Part shown: positions 21,286 to 35,528 of the stretch, in pieces
Numbering within the stretch: position 1 is the stretch's first letter
How the letters are laid out: each line of letters opens with the position of its first letter
NCBI RefSeq assembly: GCF_014646655.1
Contig: NZ_BMNR01000012.1
Location: forward strand, 1-53,611
Length of the DNA: 53,611 bases
Direction of reading: 5' to 3'
Origin: Yeosuana aromativorans
GTDB lineage: Bacteria > Bacteroidota > Bacteroidia > Flavobacteriales > Flavobacteriaceae
Position numbers and translations under genes: made by a program
The notes under the pieces: generated by a model
Databases searched by the model: none
What the model saw: the letters and a program-made list of their open reading frames with translations, nothing else
What the model was told of the DNA's origin: nothing

Positions 21286-21555
21286 TTAAAAAATACCAAC
21301 GGCCAGTTCTGCCCAAATCATTACAAATCCAATAATAACAGTAGCTATCAATGCTAAGCGTTTTGATGGTTTAGAAACACGTTGTAAAATAAAATCAATA
21401 GCCAAACCAACACAAAACAAGAGTGCACCCATCACTAAAAAATCAAGACGACTCCAATTGACTTCGTCCGTAAATTGCATAGCTATAAATGGAATTAACA
21501 ATAGCGCCAACAAACTAGAAAGAATAATAAAAAGTCTTTTGTTTTTCATAAGCAT
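21286..21555 (-). CDS. Small membrane protein with three predicted helices (unknown function)
   Basis: 89 residues from ATG 21555 (a second ATG at 21549 gives the cleaner start MKNKRLF). Hydrophobic segments are at about 8-27, 38-58 and 68-88, with TDEVNWSRLDFLVMGALLFCVGLAIDF between the first two and a C-terminus AELAVGIF. This pattern is shared by a widespread family of small inner membrane proteins without assigned function. It lies 27 nt after the photolyase gene and is the last gene of photolyase operon 2. Confidence 0.75.
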   Translation of the reverse strand: MLMKNKRLFIILSSLLALLLIPFIAMQFTDEVNWSRLDFLVMGALLFCVGLAIDFILQRVSKPSKRLALIATVIIGFVMIWAELAVGIF

Positions 21556-21582: not shown

Positions 21583-22887
21583 TTAATTCAATGCTCTTTT
21601 ATAAGTTTCCAAACAACGTTCCCTGGCAAATTTATGATCAACAATAGGAGTAGGATACGTAAGCTCTTGAAAATCGGGAACCCATTGTTTTATATAGTCT
21701 AGGTTTTTGTCAAACTTTTCAATTTGTGTGGTTGGGTTGAAAATCCTGAAATACGGAGCAGCATCCACACCGCAACCGGCAACCCATTGCCAATTCCCAA
21801 CGTTGCTGGCCATTTCATAATCGTGTAATTTTTCAGCAAAATAGGCTTCACCCCAGCGCCAATCAATCAATAAATGCTTGCATAAAAAGCTTCCTACCAG
21901 CATACGTACACGGTTATGCATAAACCCGGTTTCATTGAGCTGTCGCATGCCGGCATCAACTAACGGATAGCCTGTTTTACCGTCACACCATGCTTTAAAT
22001 TCTTGTTCATTATTTCGCCAAACAATGCGGTCATATTGCGGTTTAAAGCTTTCGGTAGCTGTATGTGGAAAATGCCAAAGAATTTGCATAAAAAATTCGC
22101 GCCAAATCAGTTCTTGCCAAAAGATTTCATTCTGTTCTGCAGTAGCTTGTTTAATAATGTTTCGAATACTAACGGTTCCAAAGCGCAAATGTGGCCCCAA
22201 TCTGGAGGTAGAATCTTTTGCTGGGAAATTACGGGTTGCTTCGTAATTTTTTATAAGGTTTGTTGAAACAGTATAAGGCTTAATGGATTGTGTTGAAGTC
22301 TTGAATCCCATATCATTCAGATTAACTGATGGCAGAGATGTGTTTTTTACAAGATTGTTTAAGAGTGATTTGGTATCAAAAGTATTGATTTCTAATGCTT
22401 TAAAAGTAGATTTCCATTGTTTCATGTAAGGCGTGTACACAACATAAGGTGTGCCATCACTTTTTACAATTTCATCTTTTTCAAATATAACTTGATCCTT
22501 AAAAGTTTTGAATCCTATGGATTTATTATCAAGAAAGTTTTTTATTTCATAATCTCTCTTGGTGGTATAGGGTTCATAATCATGATTGGTAAAAACAGTC
22601 TCAATGGAATAATCTTGAACAAGTTGATTAAAAACATCTATGGGTTTGCCATGAAACATTCCAAGACTTAAGCCATAATCATTTTTAAGAGTTTGGTTTA
22701 TGCTTTGTAAGGTTTCATAAATAAAGGTAACACGTGCATCGTCTTCAGGAAGCTTATCCAAAATTTCGGAATCAAAAATGAAAACAGGAAGTACAGGAAG
22801 ATTTCCTTGTAAGGCATGATATAAACCCACGTTATCATCAAGCCTTAAATCGCGCCGAAACCAAAAAATATTGATAGGTTGCTGCAT
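21583..22887 (-). CDS. phrB: Class I CPD deoxyribodipyrimidine photolyase
   Basis: 434 residues from the ATG at 22887; a TTG at 22902 is rejected because the typical start (QPINIFWFRRDLRLDD) follows the ATG. The N-terminal antenna domain runs to about 130 and the FAD domain from about 200. The expected tryptophans are present: AWCDGKTGYPLVDAGMRQL, DWRWGE, and NVGNWQWVAG (Trp366, Trp368), then the DNA/FAD contact DAAPYFRIFNPTTQ. It uses light to split cyclobutane pyrimidine dimers, with reduced FAD. The start lies 1 nt downstream of the SRPBCC gene stop. It is the penultimate gene of operon 2. Confidence 0.96.
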   Translation of the reverse strand: MQQPINIFWFRRDLRLDDNVGLYHALQGNLPVLPVFIFDSEILDKLPEDDARVTFIYETLQSINQTLKNDYGLSLGMFHGKPIDVFNQLVQDYSIETVFTNHDYEPYTTKRDYEIKNFLDNKSIGFKTFKDQVIFEKDEIVKSDGTPYVVYTPYMKQWKSTFKALEINTFDTKSLLNNLVKNTSLPSVNLNDMGFKTSTQSIKPYTVSTNLIKNYEATRNFPAKDSTSRLGPHLRFGTVSIRNIIKQATAEQNEIFWQELIWREFFMQILWHFPHTATESFKPQYDRIVWRNNEQEFKAWCDGKTGYPLVDAGMRQLNETGFMHNRVRMLVGSFLCKHLLIDWRWGEAYFAEKLHDYEMASNVGNWQWVAGCGVDAAPYFRIFNPTTQIEKFDKNLDYIKQWVPDFQELTYPTPIVDHKFARERCLETYKRALN

Positions 22888-22888
22888 A

Positions 22889-23350
22889 TTAGTAGGTTCC
22901 AAATAAAGCTTCTAATTTTTTGGTTCTGTAGTTGAAAATTTCTTCAAGTTTAGGTCTTATTAAAATGGGATGCACCAATTGCCCAAGAAACCCAAAAGGC
23001 ACTTTGTAGTCAATGATATCTTCCATTTCAATGCCACCATCTATTTCCTTGATAAAATGTTTATGATGCCAAAGGGCATAAGGACCAAAGCGCTGTTCAT
23101 CCACAAAATAATGGTTGTCTATAACATGAGTGATTTCTGTGACCCATTTGGTTTTAATACCCAAAACAGGTGTTACGATATACTGGATGATTTGACCAGC
23201 AAACATAGGTCTGTCTGCACCGGAGAGAATATGAAAACCCATATAATCGGGGGTGATAGTCTTTAGGTTTTTAGGATCTGATAGGAAATCCCAAGCTTGC
23301 TTAACAGTGATTGGCAACTTTTGTTTTTTGTGTAAGGTGTAAATCTTCAT
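22889..23350 (-). CDS. SRPBCC family protein (COG4276-like), photolyase neighbour
   Basis: 153 residues with a START/SRPBCC helix-grip fold: MKIYTLHKKQKLPITVKQAWDFLSDPKNLKTITP at the start, a central strand KTKWVTEITHVIDNHYFVDEQRFGPYALWHHKHFIKE, and a C-terminal helix with FNYRTKKLEALF. Members of this group are often called cell-division inhibitor-like and found beside photolyase genes. The ligand is unknown. It sits 3 nt after tspO and 1 nt before phrB, in one operon. Confidence 0.88.
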   Translation of the reverse strand: MKIYTLHKKQKLPITVKQAWDFLSDPKNLKTITPDYMGFHILSGADRPMFAGQIIQYIVTPVLGIKTKWVTEITHVIDNHYFVDEQRFGPYALWHHKHFIKEIDGGIEMEDIIDYKVPFGFLGQLVHPILIRPKLEEIFNYRTKKLEALFGTY

Positions 23351-23353
23351 GTT

Positions 23354-23815
23354 TTAATTGTAAAGTAAAATGTAGAGATTCAAGGAACAAGCCACTATTA
23401 ACCAAAGTGTATAAGGGAGTATTAATAAGGATTTTAAGCCCAATTGTTTTTGGTAGGTAAACAAAAATGCTGCTACAATATAGAGTAGGGAAACGATAAA
23501 AACGAAACCTAAGGCTATTAGATGCTGATTAAAAAACACAAAATTCCACCCAACATTCAAAATAAACTGAACAGTGAATAATATTTTCACTTTGGTGTTG
23601 GGCACCATCATATATAAATAGGCCATGTATATTGAAAAGCAAAACATGATTGTTGACCAGGCTACTCCAAAAGCCCATCCTGGAGGTGTCCAAGGCGCTT
23701 TATTAAGCTGCATATACCAATTGGTCTGAGGACCGTTATTCATTAATAATGTGCCAATAGCCAGAGCACCAAAATTGATTACCAAAAAAAACAGTATATA
23801 TTTTAGTGTTTTCAT
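23354..23815 (-). CDS. tspO: TspO/MBR family tryptophan-rich sensory protein
   Basis: 153 residues with five hydrophobic helices, a standard TspO. Motifs: NWYMQLNKAPWTPPGWAFGVAWSTIMFCFSIYMAYLY in the loop and helix 2, QFILNVGWNFVFFNQ in helix 4. TspO binds porphyrins and haem degradation products and is linked to light and oxidative stress (first described in Rhodobacter). Its ATG overlaps the stop of a 57-residue gene upstream by 4 nt (ATGA). Confidence 0.95.
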   Translation of the reverse strand: MKTLKYILFFLVINFGALAIGTLLMNNGPQTNWYMQLNKAPWTPPGWAFGVAWSTIMFCFSIYMAYLYMMVPNTKVKILFTVQFILNVGWNFVFFNQHLIALGFVFIVSLLYIVAAFLFTYQKQLGLKSLLILPYTLWLIVACSLNLYILLYN

Positions 23816-23987: not shown

Positions 23988-24533
23988 TTATTGTTTTAAA
24001 TGTTTGGTAATGGTATCGCTCATAGGATTGACTATGGAATAATAAAAATCCACTAAGTTTCCGCTTGGGTCAACTAAATATTTTTGAAAATTCCATTTAA
24101 CGGTTGAACTGGATTGGTCGTTTTTGCCTTTATCGGTTAACCATTGATATAATGGATGTTGGTTGTTTCCTTTGACATCAATTTTCTCGGTCATCACAAA
24201 AGAAACGCCATAATTAGCCTGACAAAATTCCTTGATTTGCTGTGGAGTTCCTGGTTCTTGGTTTCCAAATTGATTACAAGGCAGTCCAATAACCATCAAG
24301 TTGTCTTTGTAGGTATCATAGAGTTTTTGTAAATCCTTGTATTGACCGGTAAAGCCACATTTAGAGGCCACATTTACAAATAGAATATATTTACCTTTGT
24401 ATTGTGATAAATCAATAGGATTTCCAGTTAAGCTATTGATTTTGATATTATAAATTGATTCTGTGGGTGTTGTTTGTGCCGTGGTTTTATTGAAAATTGA
24501 AAACATAAGAGTGATAATAAATAGTTTTTTCAT
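23988..24533 (-). CDS. Glutathione peroxidase-family thiol peroxidase (exported)
   Basis: 181 residues from ATG 24533, which removes an overlap with the upstream gene and gives a signal peptide (MKKLFIITLMFSIFNKTTAQ). GPX motifs: FVNVASKCGFTGQYKDLQKLY, with peroxidatic Cys in place of selenocysteine; LPCNQFGNQEPG; and WNFQKYLVDPSG. Bacterial Cys-GPXs usually reduce hydroperoxides with thioredoxin. The signal peptide suggests a periplasmic or outer site, so it would act on lipid peroxides there. It lies 4 nt downstream of the SDR gene in operon 2. Confidence 0.93.
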   Translation of the reverse strand: MKKLFIITLMFSIFNKTTAQTTPTESIYNIKINSLTGNPIDLSQYKGKYILFVNVASKCGFTGQYKDLQKLYDTYKDNLMVIGLPCNQFGNQEPGTPQQIKEFCQANYGVSFVMTEKIDVKGNNQHPLYQWLTDKGKNDQSSSTVKWNFQKYLVDPSGNLVDFYYSIVNPMSDTITKHLKQ

Positions 24534-24537
24534 CTGT

Positions 24538-25221
24538 TTAAATTTTAAAGGTAACAATCCCGCAGTCCATTTCAAAGACTTGACCCGAAATAGAGGCAGC
24601 TTTTTCAGATATTAAAAAAGCCGCCATACTTGCTACTTCATCAGGGTTTAGGAATTTCTTAAGTGGATGACGCTCTGTAATGGCGTCAATCATTTTGTCG
24701 TTGCGTAATAGTTTTGATGCCAATTCTGTGTTTGTGACAGTAGGGGCAATGGCATTAATTCTTAATGTAGGAGCCAGTTCTGCACCAAGTGATTTTACCA
24801 AGCCCTCAATGCCCGATTTTGCTGTTGCAATACTGGCATGAAAAGGCATTCCCAATTTTGCCGCTACCGTGCTAAATAACACAATGGACGGTTTTGTTCC
24901 TTTTTTGAGGGCTGGTAAATAGGTTTGAATAGCATTAACCGCTCCCAAAACATTAATTTCAAAATCGTCCCTAAAATCATCTAGACTGAGCCTTGAAATT
25001 GGCTTTAAATTAATGCTGCCTGGGCAATATACCAAGGCATCAGCAGTTTCTATGCTTGGTAATTCGTCTTTTAAAACATCGCAAGACATGTGTGTCAAGT
25101 TTTTGTGTTCTTGTTGCGGTGTTGTTCGGCTTATATTAATGACTTTATTGTTTGGCAGTAAAAGATACAATAGGGCGTTGCCTATTCCTTTACTGCCTCC
25201 AATAATGATAATTGTTTTCAT
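24538..25221 (-). CDS. Short-chain dehydrogenase/reductase
   Basis: 227 residues. N-terminal NAD(P) motif IIIGGSKGIGNALL (GxxxGxG), NNAG-equivalent CPGS at about 68, a Ser in FSTVAAKLG (about 117), and INAIAPTVTNTELASKLL. The usual YxxxK motif is absent: HASIATAKSGIEGLV places His-Ala-Ser-Ile-Ala-Thr-Ala-Lys, so Lys is kept but the catalytic Tyr is replaced. This may be an atypical SDR with altered chemistry. It sits 7 nt downstream of folE in operon 2; similar SDRs accompany photolyase/folE clusters in other bacteria. The substrate is unknown. Confidence 0.9.
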   Translation of the reverse strand: MKTIIIIGGSKGIGNALLYLLLPNNKVINISRTTPQQEHKNLTHMSCDVLKDELPSIETADALVYCPGSINLKPISRLSLDDFRDDFEINVLGAVNAIQTYLPALKKGTKPSIVLFSTVAAKLGMPFHASIATAKSGIEGLVKSLGAELAPTLRINAIAPTVTNTELASKLLRNDKMIDAITERHPLKKFLNPDEVASMAAFLISEKAASISGQVFEMDCGIVTFKI

Positions 25222-25228
25222 CTATTAA

Positions 25229-25930
25229 TTAATTGTTTAGATAATTCTGCAATTCTGCAATCTTTTCAGGTTTATTAAAAACACCACCATAGTACGATGT
25301 TACTGTTGCAGAAGTATCGTCCTTGATGCCTCTTGACGACACACATAAATGTTTAGCGTCAATAATAATGGCAATATCCTCAGTGTCCAGTATTTGTTTT
25401 AACTCATTGGCAATTTGATTGGTCAACCGCTCTTGTACTTGAGGCCTTTTGGCATAATATTGAACAATACGGTTCAATTTAGATAATCCAATAACTTTTC
25501 CAGAAGAAATGTAAGCAACATGGGCTTTACCAATTATTGGTACAAAGTGGTGCTCACAGTTGGAGTAAAAACTGATATTTTTTTCAACCAACATTTGATT
25601 GTATTGATATTTGTTATCAAACAAGGCTACTTTGGGTTTGTTTTGTGGATTTAAACCTGAAAATATTTCATCAATATACATTTTGGCAACGCGTTTTGGT
25701 GTGCCTTTTAGGGAATCATCGGTTAGATCCAATCCCATAACTTCCATGATTTCTTCAAAAAGCAACGCAATTCTTTCTTTCTTTTCAGCATCGCTGAGTT
25801 TAAAGGCATCAGGACGCATTGGGGTTTCCAAACTTGTAAATAAGTGGTCGTCACCAATCTCATCAAATGAAAAGGATTTTAAGGCGTGCCCATTTTTTTT
25901 TGTTTTTACTCGTAAAGTGTCTGTATTCAT
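25229..25930 (-). CDS. folE: GTP cyclohydrolase I
   Basis: 233 residues. The catalytic and zinc-binding parts are complete: FYSNCEHHFVPIIGKAHVAYI (Cys and His ligands), IVQYYAKRPQVQERLTNQIA, and DAKHLCVSSRGIKD with the third zinc Cys. It converts GTP to dihydroneopterin triphosphate, the entry to folates and pterins. The N-terminal 45 residues form a variable extension. In this operon it may supply the methenyltetrahydrofolate antenna of the photolyases; that is inference. A second, housekeeping folE elsewhere in the genome is likely. Confidence 0.96.
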   Translation of the reverse strand: MNTDTLRVKTKKNGHALKSFSFDEIGDDHLFTSLETPMRPDAFKLSDAEKKERIALLFEEIMEVMGLDLTDDSLKGTPKRVAKMYIDEIFSGLNPQNKPKVALFDNKYQYNQMLVEKNISFYSNCEHHFVPIIGKAHVAYISSGKVIGLSKLNRIVQYYAKRPQVQERLTNQIANELKQILDTEDIAIIIDAKHLCVSSRGIKDDTSATVTSYYGGVFNKPEKIAELQNYLNN

Positions 25931-25985: not shown

Positions 25986-26258
25986 TTAACGTTTTGAAAT
26001 TGAGTTATGTGTAATATGTTTTTGTCTTGAACATTTAAATCGCCCTTTGACAAAGCCTCTAAGCTTTACATGTTTTGTGGAACGGCCTTGAACACGTTTT
26101 CGCCATCGTTTAAAGCTACTTGGTTTTAATTCCCTGCGCATGAGTTCTATGACCTCTTGTTCTGAACAATTAAATTGATAGGCTATGGCTTCAAAAGGAG
26201 TGCGGTCTTCCCAAGCCATTTCTATAATTCTGTCAATATCTTTTGGAAGGTTTGTCAT
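25986..26258 (-). CDS. TIGR03643 family protein (helix-turn-helix-like)
   Basis: 90 residues. The N-terminus LPKDIDRIIEMAWEDRTPFEAIAYQFNCSEQEVIELMRRELKPSSFKRWRKRVQGR is the full TIGR03643 pattern. The segment around FEAIAYQFNCSEQEVIELMRR looks like a helix-turn-helix, and the C-terminal half is highly basic, so nucleic acid binding is possible. Members are repeatedly found near photolyase and cryptochrome genes. The start overlaps the upstream gene by 1 nt. Confidence 0.88.
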   Translation of the reverse strand: MTNLPKDIDRIIEMAWEDRTPFEAIAYQFNCSEQEVIELMRRELKPSSFKRWRKRVQGRSTKHVKLRGFVKGRFKCSRQKHITHNSISKR

Positions 26259-26686
26259 TAACTATCTATAAAGGCATATTGAGCGTCAAATTCAATCTTT
26301 TTGCTAAATAGTTTTTTGAAAAAACTTTTATTTTCCTTGAAATTGATATTGTTTTTAAAACGAATAAATTTTCCTTGGGCATGAATACTGCTTCCATTTG
26401 ATTTGTATATCACTAAATGATAAAACGGAATTATCCATGTGTAGTTTCTTAAGCCTTTGTTGATTCTAACCAATAAACCGTTTGGGCGTAATTCTAAGTT
26501 GGCATATGTTATATCTGAAATGGAATTTACATACTGTTTTAAATTTGGGCTTACCTCTTCAATAACCATGCGTTTTGAGCCAATTCCTTTCATTTTAAAT
26601 ACTTCCAATAAAGAAAAAGGTTTGCCAACCACATCATTGATTAATTGGGTGTTGCTTTTATCTGAATATGTAGTATCTAAAACCAT
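26258..26686 (-). CDS. Conserved-looking protein of unknown function heading photolyase operon 2
   Basis: 142 residues, not recognised. It is soluble-looking, mixed alpha/beta, without signal peptide or cysteine clusters. Aromatic and basic residues are frequent, with strand-like pieces NLELRPNGLLVRINKGLRNYTWIIPFYHLVIY and a basic C-terminal stretch (ENKSFFKKLFSKKIEF). It is the first gene behind the second 30-bp palindrome and overlaps TIGR03643 by 1 nt. The predicted -7 element ends only 4 nt before the ATG, so its mRNA may be leaderless. Confidence 0.75.
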   Translation of the reverse strand: MVLDTTYSDKSNTQLINDVVGKPFSLLEVFKMKGIGSKRMVIEEVSPNLKQYVNSISDITYANLELRPNGLLVRINKGLRNYTWIIPFYHLVIYKSNGSSIHAQGKFIRFKNNINFKENKSFFKKLFSKKIEFDAQYAFIDS

Positions 26687-26690
26687 GAGT

Positions 26691-26743
26691 TAAAGATACA
26701 AAAAATTATAAAATGTTTAATATTTTTAATTAAAAGTTAAACA
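26691..26743 (-). promoter_or_regulatory. Promoter and 30-bp operator of photolyase operon 2
   Basis: Minus strand -7 element TATCTTTA (26691-26698), close to TAnnTTTG. Fifteen nucleotides upstream lies a 30-bp dyad, 26714-26743, with arms TGTTTAA (26714-26720) and TTAAACA (26737-26743) and a 16-nt AT-rich spacer. It matches the operator at 35339-35368 at 26 of 30 positions, and a further ATTAACA follows each. The operator covers the place of the -33 element, which has no TTG. A shared regulator is inferred. Confidence 0.7.
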
Positions 26744-26818
26744 AAAAATTAACACTTAATTCTTTTTCGTCATTGACTTCAAACAATTGAACTATTTAAA
26801 TATGTAATAAACAACTTG

Positions 26819-28288
26819 TTACGAATGCTTTATAGTGTGTTTTTTTAGGATGCGTTCGGCTTCTTTTTTTACCGTATTATCTTTTTTTAATTTCCATAAA
26901 ATATCACTTGCTTTTTTTCTGGTTTCTTTAATATCTACTATTGGATAAGGATAATCTATTCCCAGTTTAAAGTTATGGAAAGCTTGATCCAGCTCTGTCA
27001 TTAAGTAGGGCTGATGCACAAAAGGAATTTCTAACTGTCTTAATTCTGGAACCCATTTTTTTATGAAATTACCATCTGGGTCATGTTCTAAGCTGTTTTT
27101 TATAGGATTGTAAATACGAAGCGTATTTATGCCGGTTGCCCCAGCTTGCATTTGCAATTGTGGGAAGTGGATACCGGGTTCAAAATCCAAAAATAGTTGT
27201 GATAAATGCTTGGAAGCATCCTGCCAGGGTTGCCATAAATTATGAGTGAAAAATGAAACTACCAAGGCTCGCATTCTAAAATTCAAATAGCCGGTTTCTG
27301 CCAAACATCGCATACAGGCATCAATAAGCGGATATCCCGTTTGGCCTGTTTTCCAAACTTCTTGGTATTCTTTACTAACATGTTTCTTTAATTTTTGAAA
27401 TCCTTTATTAATACTTTCTTCTTCCATGGTGTGTTCCATTTCAAACTTTTGAACAAAGTGCGATTGCCATCTCAATCTTGATATAAATGCATCCAAAGGT
27501 TTCTTGTCCTTTGCAGTGTCTCTTAACGTTTTGGCACGTTGATATACTTCCCGTATCGATAGGTTGCCCCATGCTATGTAGGGCGATAGTCTGCTACAGC
27601 TTGTTCTGGATAATTCTGGTTTTGAAATATGGAACATGTAGTTTTCATATCGTTTGTTTAAAAACGAATCTAAGTATTTTAGAGCAGTTGATCGTCCGCC
27701 TTTTTGGAACAGGGAATTTGTACTGGACTCTAGCGGCATAATTGAAAATAAGGTCTCCAAAGATTCAATTTCTTTTATGGTTAGCAATTGTGAATCACTT
27801 GGATGAAACGGTAAAAGATTGGTTTCAAAATAATCATTGTTTTTTTCTAACCAGTTTTCCCGATTCTTTAAACCACGAAAAACGCCATTGTTAATGGACT
27901 CATTCCAAGTAATCATATTGTTTTTGCAAAATCTCTTGAAGGATTGGTCTCTAACATAGGTTGTTAATATACCGGTTTCTTGGTGGGAGTATATCTCATG
28001 TATTTGAAAAACTGACAGTAATTGGTTTACGGTAGCGATAATGTCAGATTTCACTATTAAAATTTTGGAATTGTAAGAGTCTAATTCGGTATTTAAATCT
28101 ACCAAAGACTGTTTGATGAAGTTCCAATGGCGTTCACTGTAATGCGGATCATTCATGAGCAATTCCTCAAAAACGTACAAGAGTAAAACCCGTTTACCAG
28201 ACTTTAAAGCATTAAAAATTGCTTCATTATCCTGTAACCTTAGATCGCGCTTTAACCAGACAAGTTGTATTTGGGGTTTAGTATTCAT
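26819..28288 (-). CDS. Divergent cryptochrome/photolyase family protein
   Basis: 489 residues. Photolyase-type start ([16 protein letters not shown]) and FAD-binding domain with [49 protein letters not shown] and [13 protein letters not shown]. The segment that in CPD photolyases reads NWQW is here FPQLQMQ (375-381), so both tryptophans, including the FAD-proximal one of the electron-transfer chain, are missing. Its exact activity is unknown; it belongs to the FAD-binding photolyase-like group found across bacteria. Its start overlaps the end of the FeS photolyase gene by 11 nt; it is the last gene of operon 1. Confidence 0.9.
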
Positions 28289-29810
28289 CTTGATGTTCTA
28301 TAATGTGTTTTGCTTTTGTTTTTATTTTGTGTAGTTCAGCAGCATCCATTTTATCCAATAACTTATACATCATGCCCATTCTGTAATTGTTTTCCAAAAA
28401 TGGTCTTTTATCATCCAGAAAGTTCCAATACAAACTGTTAAACGGACAGGCACCATCTTCAGTCTTTTTGTTTTTATTATAATGACAATTACTGCAGTAA
28501 TTACTCATTTTGTTAATGTAAGCAGCGGACGACACATAGGGCTTGGTAGCAATTTTTCCGCCATCAGCAAATTGACTCATCCCACGGGTATTGGTTATTT
28601 GCACCCATTCTATAGCATCAATGTAAATCCCTAAATACCAAGCATCAACTTCGTCGGGATTTGTTTGGGTCAGCAAGGCATAGTTACCGGTTATCATCAA
28701 GCGTTGGATGTGATGTGCATAACTGTTTTCAAGTGAGTTGTTTATGCTGTGTTTTAAGCAATTCATTTTTGTGTTTCCAGTCCAAAAGAACTCGGCCAAC
28801 GAATGGGTGTTTTTTAATGTGTTTTCATTTTTAAAAGCAGGCATTAAAGCCCAATACATACCTCTCATATATTCTCTCCAGCCAATAATTTGCCTTGTAA
28901 AACCTTCTACTTGCGAAATATGAATCTCATTTTTATGAAGAGCGTAATAATTTGTAATGGTTTTTATAACATCTTTGGGAGCGATTAATTTTAGGTTTAG
29001 GGCAAATGATAATCTGGAATGAAAGAGGTTATTTTCCTCTGTATGTATAGCATCTTGGTAATCCCCAAAGGAAATCAATAAGTGCTCGCAAAAATATTTA
29101 AGCTGTTCCAGGGCTTGCTTTCTGTTAATTGGATATGGAAATGTATCTCCATTGAAATGGCCTATAGTTTTAATTTGGGCTTTTTGGATGTCTTTTACAA
29201 TATCTGAAATATTATTTTTAAAGATTTTAGCTTTAGGAATGGTGTCTGTTTCATTCCATTTTTTTCTATTGCTTTCATCAAAATTCCATTTGCCGCCCTC
29301 AGGCTGGCCTCCAAGCATTAAGATATCATGTTTTTTACGCATGCATCTATAGAAATTTTCCATTACCCACTGTTTTTTACCTTTAAAAAAAATGGATAAC
29401 TCCTTGCGGTCTGTATAAAAATGTTCAGCAGAAACTACTTTTGAATTGATTTTTAGTGATTTACAAAATGCTGTTAGTTGTTGTTCCAATCGATATTCAT
29501 CTGGAAAGATATATTCAAATGTTTCAATATTATTTTTCTGAATTAATTGATTTAGATTATCAGTCAAATTGTGCTTATTATCATTACTATTGATTTTATA
29601 GTATGCAACTTGGTGCCCCATTTGTTTCAAATCTGAATGAAACTGACGCATGGCAGCAAAAAAACCAATAACTTTTTGAATATGATGTTGCACATAATCG
29701 GTTTCTTGTCTCATTTCAAAAAGGCAATACAAAACATTTTCGTTTTTATTTTTAAACCAAGAATGCTTGATATTAAGTTGGTCGCCTAATATGAGTCTGA
29801 GTATTTTCAT
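28278..29810 (-). CDS. FeS-BCP photolyase/cryptochrome (6-4 photolyase type, PhrB/CryB-like)
   Basis: 510 residues from the ATG at 29810; a longer frame starting at 29888 lies within the previous gene and is rejected. N-terminal DPRP domain (LILGDQL) and FAD domain. Four cysteines sit at 351, 439, 442 and 455 (CSNC, DGACPFN), one residue from the [4Fe-4S] ligands of Agrobacterium PhrB (350, 438, 441, 454). This family repairs (6-4) photoproducts or acts as a cryptochrome, with lumazine as antenna. The ATG lies 1 nt after the DASH gene stop. Confidence 0.95.
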
Positions 29811-29811
29811 T

Positions 29812-31122
29812 TTAAAAAAGTGTTTCTTGAAGCCATAAATTTTGGTAAGTTCCATTTGCATCATAACGATCTGCCTGTAATGACACATTAAATACTCTGT
29901 CTCTGGGGTCGTTGCCTACACCTGATACATACATCCAGTTACCATAATTACTATGTACATCATAATCTATAAGCATGGATTCAAAATAAGCAGCACCAAT
30001 TCTCCAATCTAATTGTAGGTTTTTAGAAAAAAATGAGGCTACATTTTGTCGCCCTCGATTGCTCACCCAACCTGTTTTTTTCAATTCAATCATATTGGCG
30101 TTTACAAACGGCGAAGCTGTTTTACCATTAATCCAGTTTGACACTAAAGTTTGGTCAGAATTCCAATGGTAGCTTTTGTTTAAAATCCCACCAATTTTAA
30201 AAATATCGTTACCGTGTTTTAAGGCTATATATTTAAAGAAATCTCTCCAAATCAGTTCAAAAAATAGCCAGTAAGTAGATTCGTTTTTGTGGTATTTTTC
30301 TTCAAAGTCTTTCAGTTTCCAATAGATGGTTCTAGCTGAAATGCTTCCGTTAGCTAGCCAAGGAGATAATTTTGAGCTGTAATCCGTTCCTATTAAACCG
30401 TTTCTGGTTTTTTTGTAAACGCTTATTTTTTGTGTTTTAAAAAAATAATCATCCAAACGTTCTAAAGCGCTAGATTCGCCACCTTCAAAAGGAAATGTGG
30501 AATTTTTATGTGTTTTAAACGTTGTAAACCCCAGTTCTTCTAATGTTGGGATTGTTGTTGTGTTTTTAATGTTTAATATGGTTTCTGTGCCTTTGTTTTG
30601 CACAGTTGGTCTTACTTTACAAGACGTTTCAATTTTTTTTCTAAAATTAGTGAATACCTCTGGAATCGTTTGTGTTTCAGAAGCTACGTCTTCTGGATGA
30701 AAGAGGAATTGGTCAAATTCTTCATTAAAAATCACCGATTTGTGCACAGTCTTTTTAACCTTCTCAATAATTTTTAATTCTTCCTGTGTAAATTCTTTTT
30801 CAAAGTAGATTGATTCGATATTATGTGATTTTATTAAATCACTAACATGGTTTTCTGAATAACCTTTATAAACAAAGAGTTCAATATTGAGCTTTTTAAG
30901 GTTCTGCTTTAAATTGTTAACCGTTTCAATCAAAAAACGGACTCTAAATTTCTCCGTTTTTTTAAAACCAAATTTAGTTAATTCAAAATTTCTAAGGTCA
31001 AAAACAAATATCGCAATAACGTGGTTACTGTTTTTAATGGCAGTATTTAAAACCATATTATCCTGAACTCTTAGGTTGTTTTTAAACCATACTAAGGATA
31101 TGTTGTTTTGTTTCGTCTGCAT
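29812..31122 (-). CDS. DASH-family cryptochrome
   Basis: 436 residues. The N-terminus [16 protein letters not shown] is photolyase-like, with Asn in place of the usual Arg in RRDLR. The C-terminal [34 protein letters not shown] is the DASH hallmark. DASH cryptochromes bind FAD and usually methenyltetrahydrofolate and repair CPDs in single-stranded DNA; some act in signalling. Its ATG lies within the DUF2256 gene (31-nt overlap, different frame). Confidence 0.95.
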
Positions 31123-31241
31123 TTTTCACTACAATAAGTTACATGCTCCCAATTGTTTTTCCATTTTTTTCTCCAGGTAAATGGTAATTGGCAAACCGGA
31201 CAAATTTTTTGAGGCAAATGTTGTTTCAATAACCTAGGCAT
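31092..31241 (-). CDS. DUF2256 small zinc-ribbon-like protein
   Basis: 49 residues: [19 protein letters not shown], then [18 protein letters not shown] and SEKCRRNK. Four cysteines (14, 17, 37, 41) in a C-x2-C ... C-x3-C pattern, with the DUF2256 signature PFTWRKKW and YCSEKCR. It overlaps the upstream SDR gene by 8 nt and the downstream DASH gene by 31 nt, in different frames. DUF2256 proteins occur with remarkable regularity next to cryptochromes and photolyases; a role in their function is plausible but unproven. Confidence 0.9.
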
Positions 31242-32658
31242 TTCCAAGTTTTTTTATCATGCCCTTAAAAATCAATCCATGAAATGGTAATACGCTGTAC
31301 CAGTAAAGTCTGCCGGCCAGACCGCGAGGTCTAAAGGTGGCTGTTTGCTTAAGTGTTTCATCTTCAATTTTAAATTCCAGCCAAGCTTCGCCTGGGAGCT
31401 TCATTTCTGCGTACAGCAAGAGTTTTTTCTGGGATTTATCGGCATAAATAACACGCCAAAAATCAAGAGCATCTCCAATATTCAATTCGGTTTGATGGGT
31501 TCTGCCCCGACGTAACCCAATGCCGCCAACCAGTTTATCTAGATAGCCTCTGATTTTCCATAAAAACGTGCCATAGTACCAGCCTGTATTTCCACCAATA
31601 GACCAGATTTTATTAAGAGTGGCATCTGTATTTTTAACCTGTATTTCTTTGTAATCTTTAAAGCATCCGTATGAAGGTACATTGATGTATTTATGCATGC
31701 TGTTTTTTAGGCGACCACTGCTTACCATGGAGTCTTTCCAACTGGACACAATGCTATTTTGCTCAATTTTTTCAAAAGCCAGTGCTACGGCTTCTTTGTA
31801 TGTAATAGGATGAACATCCAGTAATTGATTGATATTGCTTGGTTTTCCAACAATTTGAACGCCCATACTATCAACCAATGTTGACGCCAATTTATAGGAT
31901 GTGGATGTTACAAAATACAGCCAATACGATGATAATTTGGGAGTCATTACAGGCACGGTTATAATGTGTCGTTTTAGTTTGCGGATCTTGGCAAACTGCA
32001 ACAGCATGTCTTTGTAGGTGAGTATTTCTGGTCCAAAAATATCATAGGATTGATTGTAAAGTTCCGTTTTCCCTTTAGCTCTTGTTAGAAATGTTAATAC
32101 ATCTCTCACGGCTAGAGGCTGTGATTTGGTATGTAACCATTTTGGAGCAATCATCACAGGAAGTTTTTCAACCAAATCGCGAATAATTTCAAAAGACGAA
32201 CTGCCCGAACCAACTATTATTCCAGCTTTAAAGGTTGTCAAGGCATATTTTTTTGAAGCTAAAGCTTCTTCTACATTTTTACGTGAACGAAGGTGTTTAG
32301 AAAGTTTTTCTTCATTGGTTATCCCGCTCAAATAAATCACCTGCTTTGTCTGGGTACTTTCAATATAGGTTTTAAAGTTGATGGCGCACGCATGTTCCAA
32401 AGCTTCAAAGTTTTTGGACGTATTGGACATAGAGTGAATCAAATAATACGCTACATCAATGTCCTTGGGAATATTCTTAAGGGTTTCTTGTTTTAAAAAA
32501 TCAGCTTCAACAAATTGTATGTGCTTGTCTTCAAGATAGGTTTTATCAGCACGTAACGTGTCGCGTACAGCACATACAACGTCATGACCTTCATTAACCA
32601 ACATGGGAATGAGGCGTTTTCCTATATAGCCTGTTGCTCCTGTAACAAGTATTTTCAT
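31234..32658 (-). CDS. SDR/NAD(P)-binding protein with DUF2867 domain
   Basis: 474 residues. An extended-SDR Rossmann domain ([21 protein letters not shown], GxxGxxG at about 7-13) to about 290 is fused to a C-terminal DUF2867 domain, a START-like fold rich in aromatic residues ([44 protein letters not shown]). Such fusions are found near photolyase genes in many bacteria. An NAD(P)-dependent redox role with a hydrophobic ligand is inferred. It ends 8 nt inside the start of DUF2256. Confidence 0.9.
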
Positions 32659-32705
32659 TGGTTATGAATTTAGTTTTATAACCAGATGCTAAAAAAATAA
32701 TAACC

Positions 32706-33326
32706 TTATTGAATTTTTGGTCTCTGGTATTCCAATCGTGTTTTTAAGCAAGGTACTGAATAACCATCCAATCCATTGATAGTGGCCACTTTTCCTTTTG
32801 ACAAATTGATAAACCCATCATCTTCCAATAGGTTGTTGCCTATGTATAAATCTTGGATTGCTCCAATCACTAAAATGGTATTGTTTGCCTTGATGTCATA
32901 TTCCTCAACATATTTCATGGCCATTTGTATGGGTGCGTGTTTTACAAAAGGCACGTTATAACGGTCCTTGTACTCTTCTTCTAAATTGGTTACATCAAAT
33001 TCTGAAATGGACTTATCATATTTAGCTGAGGTGTGATGCGCGTCTGCTAAAACAGATTCGTGAACATGATTGATGGTGAAATATTCTGTTTCTTTAATAT
33101 TGTCATAAGTATTCCGGATTACGGTTGTAGGCCTTAAAAAGAATCCCAAAAGGGCAGGGTTGGAGCCAATATGGGTTACCGAACTAAAAATGGCCACATT
33201 TGAAATACCATCGTTTGATTTTGTGCCAATCAAGTTGGCCGATTTATAGCCTGAACAGCTATTGATGAGATTGATTTTATATAAATGATGCATGGCATCA
33301 ATATCTTGTTTTGTAAAATGCGTCAT
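32706..33326 (-). CDS. Flavin reductase-like FMN-binding protein
   Basis: 206 residues. A flavin-reductase split barrel: LINSCSGYKSANLIGTKSNDGISNVAIFSSVTHIGSNPALLGFFLRPTTVIRNTYDNI is the flavin-binding part, with TINHV and a long middle helix. Proteins of this kind bind FMN and reduce flavins or other acceptors with NAD(P)H. In this cluster it may keep flavins reduced for the photolyases, which is inference. It lies 47 nt upstream of the SDR-DUF2867 gene and 3 nt after the UbiB-type gene stop. Confidence 0.88.
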   Translation of the reverse strand: MTHFTKQDIDAMHHLYKINLINSCSGYKSANLIGTKSNDGISNVAIFSSVTHIGSNPALLGFFLRPTTVIRNTYDNIKETEYFTINHVHESVLADAHHTSAKYDKSISEFDVTNLEEEYKDRYNVPFVKHAPIQMAMKYVEEYDIKANNTILVIGAIQDLYIGNNLLEDDGFINLSKGKVATINGLDGYSVPCLKTRLEYQRPKIQ

Positions 33327-33329
33327 TGG

Positions 33330-34640
33330 TTAGTTTGCATTTAAATTATTAATCTTAATGTGTTTAGCTTTAAGATCAAACATTAAGTTATACAATCCAA
33401 AGAATGTTCTATTTATATAAATAAAATGCTTGGAACCTCGGTTGCCATTCATTTTTCTTAATTCGGTGTTTTTAGAATAACGCTCACCCAGCTCTGCAAT
33501 CTTTCCAAAGAAATCAGCATTTGAAAAATCAAAATAATCATTGTGAAATGGTTGCGTAAACAGACTTAACATTTCATGGAACATATTGGTAAAGAAGTCC
33601 AGCTCTTCTTGAGTATCATCATCTTTTAGAATTTCCAATTCGTATAATTTGGACACAAAATAAGTTTTATTGTTGATGTTTTTGGGTTCCGCCAGTTCAA
33701 AATAGGGCGTATAAAATTCATTGGGAATAATTTTCATGCATCCAAAATCCAATGCAATTAATTGACCCTCTTTTGAAATCAAAAAGTTGCCCGGATGTGG
33801 ATCGGCATGAACTTTTTTGAGTTTGTGGATTTGATACATATAAAAATCCCAAAGCGCTTGTCCTAACTGATTTGCTTTTGCTTGATTGGTATTGTGGGCT
33901 GTGAATTCAGAAAGATGTTCACCTTCCATATAATCCATGGTAATGATACGTTCAGAAGAAAGATCTTCATAATATTCTGGAAACGATAGGTTGGAAATGT
34001 GAGAGCACGCCAAAGCAATTTCCTTACTTTGACTGATTTCCAACCTATAATCTGTCTCCTCCATTAATTTTCCTTCAACTTCTTTAAAGTATTTATCAGA
34101 ATCCTTGCCCTTTATGTTAAACATGCTCATGGCAATGGGTTTAACCATAGCGAGATCTGATGCAATACTTTCTGCAACTCCTGGATATTGGATTTTCACA
34201 GCAAGTTTTTTCCCATTTTTTTCTGCAATGTGCACTTGGCCAATGCTAGCAGCGTTTACAGAAGTTGCATTGAAGGAATCATAAATGTCATAAGGTGATT
34301 TTCCAAAGTATTTTTTAAATGTTTTGATGACCAAAGGCGGTGATAACGGCGGAACAGAAAACTGGGCCAAAGAAAATTTTTCAACATAAGCTTGAGGTAG
34401 GATGCTTTTTTCCATACTTAGCATTTGAGCCACTTTTAAAGCGCTTCCTTTAAGTTGTTTTAACCCGTTGTAAATGTCATCAGCGTTGTTTTTGTTGAGG
34501 CGTTCTTTGGCTTCAAATTCAGTATTCACTAATTTGTCACCGTAATATTTTAGGTAATTAACACCTACTTTAGCACCGGTTGATACTAATTTTGAGGCTC
34601 GTTGTATTTTTGAAACAGGTATACTGTCTATGGTCTTCAT
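33330..34640 (-). CDS. ABC1/UbiB (AarF) family atypical kinase
   Basis: 436 residues. UbiB/ADCK features: SALKVAQMLSM, where the usual KxGQ motif reads KVAQ (69-72); the Ala-rich loop VNAASIGQVHIAE (about 128-140); AVKIQYPG with Lys149; KVHADPHPGNFLI (catalytic loop) and LDFGCMK (metal motif). There is no C-terminal membrane helix. The family uses ATP to support quinone or lipid pathways. The Gly-to-Ala change in KxGQ is notable. Gene 2 of operon 1, 9 nt after the TetR-like gene. Confidence 0.92.
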   Translation of the reverse strand: MKTIDSIPVSKIQRASKLVSTGAKVGVNYLKYYGDKLVNTEFEAKERLNKNNADDIYNGLKQLKGSALKVAQMLSMEKSILPQAYVEKFSLAQFSVPPLSPPLVIKTFKKYFGKSPYDIYDSFNATSVNAASIGQVHIAEKNGKKLAVKIQYPGVAESIASDLAMVKPIAMSMFNIKGKDSDKYFKEVEGKLMEETDYRLEISQSKEIALACSHISNLSFPEYYEDLSSERIITMDYMEGEHLSEFTAHNTNQAKANQLGQALWDFYMYQIHKLKKVHADPHPGNFLISKEGQLIALDFGCMKIIPNEFYTPYFELAEPKNINNKTYFVSKLYELEILKDDDTQEELDFFTNMFHEMLSLFTQPFHNDYFDFSNADFFGKIAELGERYSKNTELRKMNGNRGSKHFIYINRTFFGLYNLMFDLKAKHIKINNLNAN

Positions 34641-34649
34641 ATAGAGAGA

Positions 34650-35306
34650 TTAGTTCATGTGCATTTTTTCCTTGAAAAGAAATTTTCCAAGGTCAATAAC
34701 ACTTTTTAGTGGAGCAATATGTAATACATCAAAACTGGTATTGACGGATTTTTCAATAAATATGTCTGTTTTTTCAAATCCAGCAGACGTATCATCCAAC
34801 CAAAATTTTATGGTAACCAAGAGTTGTATCCACGCTGATTCTTGTAATGCTTTCTTTTGGATTTTTTCTATGTTTTCTTGATTGATATCCAAGGTCTCAA
34901 TATCTAATTCAGAAATGTACTGTGCAAAACTTTTTCTAAGCCCCGATAAAGGAGCAAGGCTATTCAAGTCTTTTTTACAGTCTTTTAGAACATAAATCAC
35001 ATAGCTTCTATTAGCTGTTAAGTTTTCAAAAAACGTAAAGTAGAAACTCAACAGCTTGTTTCTGGCATCAAATGATTGATAGTCTTTACTGGCTTGCAAG
35101 ATTTTTATGGTGTTATCAAAAAACGTACTAAATATTTGTTTCTCAATGGCCTCAAATGAACCAAAATAGTTGTAAAATTGAGATTCTTCAAAATTATTGC
35201 TTTTAGAAAATAGATAAACAGATTTTGGTTTATCATGATGTTCAAGCACATAATCCATGTACATTGTTAATATATCTGAAGTTGATATTGTTTTCTTTTT
35301 AGCCAT
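34650..35306 (-). CDS. TetR-like transcription regulator
   Basis: 218 residues from the ATG at 35306; an upstream TTG start would include the promoter's -7 region and is rejected. An N-terminal helix-turn-helix region (to about 55) with SNNFEESQFYNYFGSFEAIEKQIF, matching the TetR recognition helix and the F-Y-x-Y-F-G-S-K/F-E pattern, followed by an all-helical ligand domain. TetR proteins are usually repressors controlled by a small ligand. It is the first gene behind the 35339-35368 palindrome; it may bind there and also at 26714-26743. Confidence 0.85.
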   Translation of the reverse strand: MAKKKTISTSDILTMYMDYVLEHHDKPKSVYLFSKSNNFEESQFYNYFGSFEAIEKQIFSTFFDNTIKILQASKDYQSFDARNKLLSFYFTFFENLTANRSYVIYVLKDCKKDLNSLAPLSGLRKSFAQYISELDIETLDINQENIEKIQKKALQESAWIQLLVTIKFWLDDTSAGFEKTDIFIEKSVNTSFDVLHIAPLKSVIDLGKFLFKEKMHMN

Positions 35307-35325
35307 AATTGTTATAATTATAGTA

Positions 35326-35368
35326 CAAAGATACAAAATGTTTAATCTTTATTAATAAAAGTTAAACA
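35326..35368 (-). promoter_or_regulatory. Promoter and 30-bp operator of photolyase operon 1
   Basis: Minus strand -7 element TATCTTTG (plus-strand CAAAGATA, 35326-35333) is a perfect TAnnTTTG. Five nucleotides upstream is a near-perfect 30-bp palindrome, 35339-35368, arms TGTTTAA and TTAAACA, with an inner TTTATTAATAAA that is itself a palindrome. Only two positions per arm break the symmetry. The dyad covers the -33 position, which has no TTG. The same element precedes operon 2, one helical turn (10 bp) further from the -7. Confidence 0.75.
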
Positions 35369-35528
35369 AAATTAACATAATAATTTGATATTATCGTATA
35401 TTAGGTAAATTGAAAAGGGTTCAGAAGGAAAATGGATAACCAAAAACATGATAACATCTATTCTGTTTTAGGTTTTTGTTAACATTTAATAGCTTATTTT
35501 TATAACAATCATTAAAAACTACTAAACA

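Follow-up and report, generated by a model that had tools for sequence, protein, structure and literature searches.

A 30-bp operator shared by photolyase, carotenoid and rhodopsin promoters in Flavobacteriaceae points to a CarH/LitR-like MerR regulator

Two consecutive operons containing photolyase genes are found on a 53,611-nucleotide stretch of the Yeosuana aromativorans genome (contig NZ_BMNR01000012.1, positions 1 to 53,611; hereafter the window), and each is preceded by the same 30-bp inverted repeat, TGTTTAA-N16-TTAAACA, at 35339-35368 for operon 1 and 26714-26743 for operon 2. An earlier note, made from the sequence alone, had read these dyads as the operator of one light or photo-oxidation regulon and put forward the TetR-like protein encoded first in operon 1 as its regulator. 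Our analysis supports a single regulator common to both operons, and the gene content of both operons (Table 1) supports a light and photo-oxidation regulon. The regulator, however, is very probably a different protein: the dyad appears to be the operator not of the TetR-like protein but of a CarH/LitR-like MerR protein encoded beside the carotenoid operon, which on the model of CarH would repress its targets in the dark and release them in the light.

The window contains exactly two exact matches to the dyad, with the positions, arms and spacer first described, and no copy arose in 100 dinucleotide shuffles of the window. The two dyads are identical at 26 of 30 positions, the count obtained before. 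The flavobacterial -7 consensus is reported as TAnnTTTG (PMC9723704), and the -7 boxes of the two operons begin at distances from the right arm that differ by 10 bp, as had been claimed. We also agree, by eye, that no TTG is seen at -33 upstream of either window operon; that stretch lies inside or against the dyad. The statement that there is no third copy holds within the window and fails genome-wide, where exact dyads occur at six places compared to one for a backwards control. Allowing one mismatch gives 10 places compared to 4 in the control, and because such matches are near noise they were not used.

One of the further exact dyads directly precedes a crtI-like start codon and lies 12 bp past the gene for a 312-residue MerR protein, in a cluster that also holds phytoene synthase and lycopene cyclase genes; a 151-residue open reading frame (ORF) in this cluster has no Pfam match, and the name crtZ would be a guess from its position. 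At the sequence level, the operator is therefore found at a carotenoid promoter beside the gene of the candidate regulator itself, as for CarH. The regulon had been described as having no usual LitR/CarH regulator in view, but a CarH/LitR-like gene is in fact present on another contig, beside a carotenoid operon with the same operator. Two more dyads stand in tandem, 40 bp apart (G000:C4:118288 and 118328, where G000 is this genome; L006 10289 and 10329), before a gene with three fasciclin stretches. Tandem dyads at fasciclin promoters, 40-42 bp apart, are also seen in genomes G001, G003, G005, G006 and G050, and several fasciclin paralogues carry the dyad. The sixth exact dyad (G000:C1:302413-302442; L007 9914) is unlike the others, with a G+C-richer spacer and a location between a 516-residue ORF and an HMGL-like gene, and may be a chance copy.

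All seven genomes of the genus contain the exact dyad, each at two or more of the common target places, with 36 forward sites compared to 4 in the control. In the six genomes other than that of the window, it recurs before crtI, fasciclin genes, the operon of TetR and ABC1, and the operon of DUF2805 and a 142-residue hypothetical protein (hyp142), the places varying by genome; G002 has two exact sites alone, before crtI and 232 bp before a glutathione peroxidase gene. Within one mismatch, the dyad precedes TetR orthologues at 28 of 34 loci, which comprise the 30 best of 76 TetR matches plus those of G046, G031, G013 and G085. The motif is thus present upstream of orthologous operons in relatives, as the reading of the earlier note requires, and the shuffles together with the genome and genus counts against their controls reject a chance origin of the window dyads.

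In order to examine which protein the dyad follows, we used a family sample of 120 genomes, one per genus, in which 327 motif sites were found compared to 15 in the control, and called a MerR match of over 200 bits full-type. The motif is present in 85 of 87 genomes with a full-type MerR and in 5 of 33 without one (Fisher P = 5e-20, a figure from counts that ignore kinship). It also occurs in 70 of 76 genomes with TetR and 20 of 44 without TetR. Genomes that have one protein and not the other separate the two candidates: with a full-type MerR and no TetR the motif is kept in 18 of 19, with TetR and no full-type MerR in 3 of 8, and with no TetR and no MerR of either kind in 1 of 22. Of the three TetR-bearing exceptions, G013 and G031 encode a diverged MerR with isoleucine still at residue 34 (Ile34), described below, and G085 is an assembly that is 81% complete. 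Outside the family, among 198 genomes of the class, the motif is found in 86 of 112 that have MerR and in 8 of 80 that do not, again from counts that ignore kinship, and the class genomes without MerR hold 8 sites compared to 5 in the control, which is near control level. Furthermore, beyond the family, 31 of 64 MerR loci have a site with at most one mismatch within 250 bp past the gene, and none of 640 shuffles does. These 64 loci, drawn from the 112 MerR-bearing genomes, are 24 non-family loci (left after 5 family loci were dropped from the 29 non-own ones in the top 30 matches), all 26 without the motif, and 14 chosen motif-bearing ones. The gene that follows MerR and site in the class loci is crtI-like in five and encodes an extracytoplasmic function (ECF) sigma factor in both loci checked. 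In these two (L286:2541-3050 and L292:2578-3117) the order is MerR gene, operator, ECF sigma factor gene, and many other class loci have an ORF of similar length at the ECF position, which may point to a light cascade of two steps in other parts of the class.

The operator also changes with the DNA-reading part of MerR. Nine family genomes have a diverged MerR, about 33-39% identical, whose gene neighbors crtI in all nine and a fasciclin gene as well in eight. Residue 34 is Ile in all 34 full-type proteins examined and Lys in seven of the nine diverged ones, the recognition helix changing from HTIRIWEKRY to HTLRKWE[ST]RY in the Lys34 proteins. In each of the seven Lys34 genomes, one or more TGTC...GACA sites are found at the examined promoters, and TGTT...AACA sites are absent from them; the altered site is at the MerR-fasciclin promoter in six and before the TetR operon in G046. 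The two diverged genomes that keep Ile34 have TGTT...AACA sites, at the MerR gene in G013 and before TetR in G031. Among full-type TetR loci read whole, the T/A arms are present in 24 of 26 and the C/G arms in none, and neither was found in 2000 shuffled 300-bp stretches. It is important to point out that the strict pattern TGTCTAA-N16-TTAGACA is weak taken alone, being found in 5 of 120 family genomes with 3 sites in the control; three of the five are Lys34 genomes (G072, G038 and G044) and two have a full-type MerR (G012 and G027, one site each). Finding a C/G-type site in all seven Lys34 genomes requires looser arms and a spacing of 16-17 bp, and because this pattern was framed after viewing the sequences it serves more to describe the sites than to test them blind.

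Given these results, the proposal that the TetR-like protein recognizes the dyad and controls both operons, its own gene included, is very improbable. TetR is the first gene behind operator 1, its orthologues mostly have the operator before them, and motif and TetR co-occur; however, the operator does not follow the TetR gene, as it persists in nearly all MerR-bearing genomes that lack TetR and is found in a minority of TetR-bearing genomes that lack a full-type MerR. When the operator is altered together with the MerR helix, the TetR proteins of the four Lys34 genomes that have one stay 53-64% identical to that of the window (64% in G044 and 61% in G072). In the single-contig assembly G065, TetR is 62% and ABC1 76% identical, no MerR match is found, and the dyad before TetR is gone. 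Pfam moreover sees only the C-terminal TetR_C_23 domain in the window protein, and the crtI, rhodopsin and fasciclin targets lie away from the TetR gene. We therefore rejected the TetR-like protein as the regulator on the co-occurrence and co-variation evidence, and it is most likely a regulated gene. It is even harder to credit that the dyads are structural, for example an operon 1 terminator or an AT-rich feature of promoters, rather than an operator. Operator 2 does follow operon 1 and precede operon 2, and the dyad spacer is AT-rich, but symmetric arms are conserved at unlinked promoters with a preferred -7 offset for each target, the dyad is rare in genomes without MerR, and symmetric arm changes follow a residue of the recognition helix.

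The MerR protein resembles CarH in several respects. It matches PF13411 and PF02607, corresponding to an N-terminal MerR helix-turn-helix (HTH) and a C-terminal B12-binding region, and a PDB sequence search aligns it with Thermus thermophilus CarH (TtCarH) across both the HTH and the B12 region. The motif W-x9-EH of the adenosyl pocket is conserved (W and E in 43 of 43 proteins, H in 42), as is ExH[DE]xG (E and H in 43 of 43, G in 42), whose His is the lower-axial ligand in E-x-H-x-x-G. An AlphaFold2 model built from a 26-row alignment has a mean predicted local distance difference test score (pLDDT) of 88.5, and its best fold matches in the PDB are the Thermus CarH structures 5c8d, 5c8e and 5c8f (E 1.7e-12 and up). 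The cobalamin-binding domain alone fits CarH closely, with a root-mean-square deviation (rmsd) of about 4 and a target-normalised template modelling (TM) score of 0.72-0.78. The protein is therefore CarH-like and probably a class I LitR-like protein, which by this likeness would bind B12.

We think it rather unlikely, although the least remote of the alternatives, that MerR binds the dyad while the light signal is something other than adenosylcobalamin (AdoB12), whether relayed by a partner protein (the case in Pseudomonas class II LitR), sensed by another chromophore (as in class III) or of a redox kind. In favor of this is that the position beside the conserved Trp that is His in TtCarH is Gln in all 34 full-type proteins, and that the MerR protein of this genome has no Pfam match (E up to 0.001) to the Rossmann-type B12-binding family. 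The near-invariant ExH[DE]xG and W-x9-EH residues, and fold matches that center on CarH and its cobalamin-binding domain, argue instead for AdoB12. The aligned TtCarH residue, which we take to be His132, is presumably the second cobalt ligand of the light state, possibly not a universal one, and H132A variants are named in the titles of the matched CarH structures; the nine diverged proteins have Gly, Thr or Ser there.

Several observations weigh against the CarH/LitR-like MerR as a regulator of this kind. Two of the 87 full-type family genomes (G026 and G098) and 26 of the 112 MerR-bearing class genomes have no exact site. Residue 34 does not account for the missing class sites, because most of these 26 MerR proteins keep Ile or Met and a few have Val or Ala. 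The co-occurrence counts ignore kinship, and genomes without MerR may also be without the target genes, an objection that is met in part because of the loss in G065 and the co-variation of MerR and operator. Among the Lys34 genomes, G020 shows no clear site before the TetR operon, the site there in G072 is a mixed TGTC...AACA, mixed sites occur also in G020 and G044 (and in G031, which has Ile34), and a single exact TGTTTAA site is present in G034, outside the examined promoters. Superposed on CarH over its full length, the model fits loosely (TM about 0.5, rmsd 11-19), and because Gln replaces the second His ligand the photochemistry may differ from that of TtCarH. With 64.3 bits against a cut-off of 400 for NCBIfam NF052513, the CarH equivalog model, the protein is CarH-like and not a CarH equivalog. 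Finally, in the family genomes considered next, the rhodopsin gene has no site within two mismatches in 5 of the 17 that have a full-type MerR, and has a one-mismatch site in 2 of the 5 (G061 and G085) where no full-type MerR was detected.

Rhodopsin matches are present in 25 of the 120 family genomes, and 22 of the genes were usable after those of G073 (cut by a contig end), G110 (partial) and G051 (below cut-off) were dropped. In the 17 genomes with a full-type MerR, a site lies upstream of the rhodopsin gene within one mismatch in 10 and within two in 12. Named genomes were scanned separately, keeping the best 80 of 591 rhodopsin loci; almost all of them carry titles of flavobacteria or Bacteroidetes, and 63 of the 80 have the operator before the gene with at most one mismatch. 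Within 150 bp of the rhodopsin start, 38 of the 80 are exact and 25, 7 and 10 have one, two, and three or more mismatches, respectively, compared to 1600 shuffles in which none had one mismatch or fewer and 19 had two. Six of the 80, chosen by hand, were also scanned as whole genomes, giving 2-7 exact sites per genome and none for the control. In five of them (Robiginitalea myxolifaciens, Kordia periserrulae, Leeuwenhoekiella nanhaiensis, Nonlabens tegetincola and a Dokdonia metagenome-assembled genome) a site separates diverging genes for rhodopsin and for the dioxygenase that makes retinal; the remaining genome, that of Polaribacter irgensii, has a one-mismatch site at its rhodopsin gene. 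The same arrangement, with a beta-carotene 15,15'-dioxygenase gene, is seen in G001. Sites in the six genomes also neighbor TetR, FolE, hyp142, START, CrtI and fasciclin genes and, in single instances, methionine sulfoxide reductase, peroxiredoxin and HhH-GPD repair genes, while several have no clear target. Of 11 loci titled Polaribacter, seven (L221, L223, L230, L239, L240, L242 and L264) have no site within two mismatches, so regulation of these rhodopsins may be lost or changed. N. tegetincola (L384) has a second, distant rhodopsin, 27% identical to that of G001, with an exact dyad 8 bp before the ORF. A contig filed under Candidatus Rokubacteria (L258, OMJU01000080.1) carries a flavobacterial-type rhodopsin with an exact operator and is probably misbinned.

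Photolyase genes are reported to be enriched in rhodopsin-bearing Flavobacteriia (PMC5932025). Regulation of the Dokdonia proteorhodopsin was called open in 2013 in PMC3587595, which describes an RpoD consensus before the rhodopsin gene of strain MED134 and none at the same place in two other strains. Among the matches listed in a search of open-access titles and the beginnings of abstracts, with subscription papers outside its scope, none linked CarH/LitR or the dyad to rhodopsin genes.

The placement of the operator relative to the -7 box is characteristic of each target. We measured the start of TAnnTTTR from the end of the right arm at the 63 rhodopsin loci with at most one mismatch and at sites of the other groups, less duplicate contexts and sites under 40 bp from a locus end; 29 distinct crtI sites were collected across genus and family loci. 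The box starts at -15 in 27 of the 29 crtI sites and in 7 of 7 fasciclin sites, at -16 in 29 of 63 rhodopsin sites, at +5 in 29 of 34 TetR sites with 3 more at +4, and at both +5 and +15 in 4 of 5 hyp142 sites each. Minor peaks are found at -26 (9 rhodopsin sites) and -36 (6 rhodopsin, 8 TetR and 5 crtI sites). The box positions step by about 10 bp, generalizing the 10-bp difference seen in the window; the operator lies over the -7 box at some promoters and over the -33 region at others, on one helical face. A TGTTWA half-site begins 9-11 bp upstream of the left arm in 12 of 34 TetR and 4 of 5 hyp142 sites, both window sites included. In the window these extra half-sites read TGTTAA on the minus strand and start 9 bp (35372-35377, operator 1) and 11 bp (26749-26754, operator 2) ahead of the left arms; they form a direct repeat that resembles a third binding position, and the offset is 10 bp in most relatives having one.

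CarH/LitR proteins are described as negative regulators that are inactivated by photolysis of AdoB12 (PMC6739363), and a MerR gene heads the carotenoid cluster of Nonlabens spongiae (PMC11855829). By analogy with this biology, the MerR protein loaded with AdoB12 would sit on the dyad in the dark and block transcription, at the -7 box of the crtI, fasciclin and many rhodopsin promoters and at the -33 region of the two window operons. Light would break the cobalt-carbon bond and MerR would leave the DNA, upon which photolyase, cryptochrome, pterin, antioxidant and carotenoid genes, and proteorhodopsin with its dioxygenase where present, would be induced jointly.

Like CarH of T. thermophilus and Myxococcus, the class I LitR that acts as an AdoB12-dependent MerR photoreceptor, the MerR protein combines a MerR HTH, a four-helix cap and a Rossmann-like domain, keeps W-x9-EH and E-x-H-x-x-G, is encoded next to carotenoid genes and has a predicted fold closest to CarH. 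Unlike CarH, it is 18-20% identical to full-length CarH in structural alignments, has Gln at TtCarH His132, scores below the NCBIfam CarH cut-off, and goes with a 30-bp inverted repeat of TGTTTAA and a regulon that contains photolyases, fasciclins and rhodopsins. Among the regulons we found, the nearest to that of the window is that of class II LitR in Pseudomonas (PplR1/PmlR2), where PMC9758184 reports LitR-family control of photolyase, short-chain dehydrogenase (SDR), folE and cryptochrome-like genes. There, however, the operator has two 6-bp arms, TGTACA-N12-TGTACA, differing from the dyad in arms and spacing, with one of two sites overlapping the -35 region; the protein keeps one of two B12-binding domains, and the light signal of PmlR2 comes from a LOV protein (PMC9758184). 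The passages of that source drawn on here leave rhodopsin genes unmentioned. In Vibrio cholerae, the MerR-like VCA0056 is in a predicted operon with a photolyase gene, and a double mutant in VCA0056 and ChrR is described as blind to blue light (PMC5241685). Unlike the protein described here, VCA0056 is gammaproteobacterial and works beside ChrR, and the passages of PMC5241685 drawn on give no operator.

Both window operons are on the minus strand and the dyads precede 16 ORFs, 7 in operon 1 and 9 in operon 2, rather than the approximately 18 genes first estimated (Table 1). Elsewhere, a gene for a 537-residue thiamine-diphosphate oxidoreductase-like protein (L026:1262-2875; POR_N and TPP_enzyme_C, families checked in L026) diverges from the operon 2 dyad. 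ORFs of the same length are found in L030, L033, L044 and L046, and in G002 one diverges from the dyad of the glutathione peroxidase operon. In the window, the end of operon 1 occupies the place of this gene.

Table 1. Operators and genes of the two window operons, and the candidate regulator gene on another contig
Feature	Position	Strand	Remarks
Operator 1, TGTTTAACTTTTATTAATAAAGATTAAACA (read towards operon 1)	35339..35368	-	dyad; -7 box TATCTTTG begins 5 bp past right arm
TetR_C_23 protein, operon 1 gene 1	34650..35336	-	C-terminal TetR_C_23 domain alone recognised by Pfam
ABC1 atypical kinase-like protein (operon 1)	33330..34640	-	PF03109
Flavin reductase-like protein (operon 1)	32706..33326	-	PF01613
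NAD(P)-binding and DUF2867 protein (operon 1)	31234..32658	-	PF11066, PF13460
Cryptochrome DASH (operon 1)	29812..31122	-	TIGR02765, above cut-off
Photolyase-related protein, DPRP family (operon 1)	28278..29888	-	PF04244
Photolyase/cryptochrome family protein, operon 1 last gene	26819..28288	-	FAD_binding_7; under NCBIfam cut-offs
Operator 2, TGTTTAACTTTTAATTAAAAATATTAAACA (read towards operon 2)	26714..26743	-	dyad; -7 box TATCTTTA begins 15 bp past right arm
142-residue hypothetical protein (hyp142), operon 2 gene 1	26258..26686	-	
DUF2805 protein (operon 2)	25986..26258	-	PF10985
GTP cyclohydrolase I, FolE (operon 2)	25229..25930	-	PF01227
Short-chain dehydrogenase, SDR (operon 2)	24538..25221	-	PF13561
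Glutathione peroxidase family (operon 2)	23988..24575	-	PF00255
TspO/MBR (operon 2)	23354..23815	-	PF03073
Polyketide_cyc/START-like protein (operon 2)	22889..23350	-	PF03364
DNA photolyase (operon 2)	21583..22902	-	top NCBIfam scores with 8-HDF and PRK10674 photolyase models, under their cut-offs
89-residue ORF, operon 2 end	21286..21555	-	without Pfam family
CarH/LitR-like MerR gene, 312 residues	G000 (this genome) contig C4, L005:8916-9854		MerR and B12-binding cap domain

The same site stands before carotenoid and proton-pump genes in many flavobacteria, which suggests one switch for a program of life in the light. On balance, we lean towards the view that a B12-based CarH-type photoreceptor switches on flavobacterial rhodopsin phototrophy, with proteorhodopsin and its retinal enzyme sharing an operator with repair, pterin, antioxidant and carotenoid genes, and with residue 34 setting the operator sequence; Ile34 with TGTT..AACA and Lys34 with TGTC..GACA would then be a natural operator-specificity pair. 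This reading predicts that the light responses of these bacteria depend on vitamin B12, and a single, easily scored 30-bp operator together with a named candidate photoreceptor makes the question of proteorhodopsin regulation directly testable. If true, light-driven growth, photoprotection and cobalamin supply would be wired into one switch across much of Bacteroidia.

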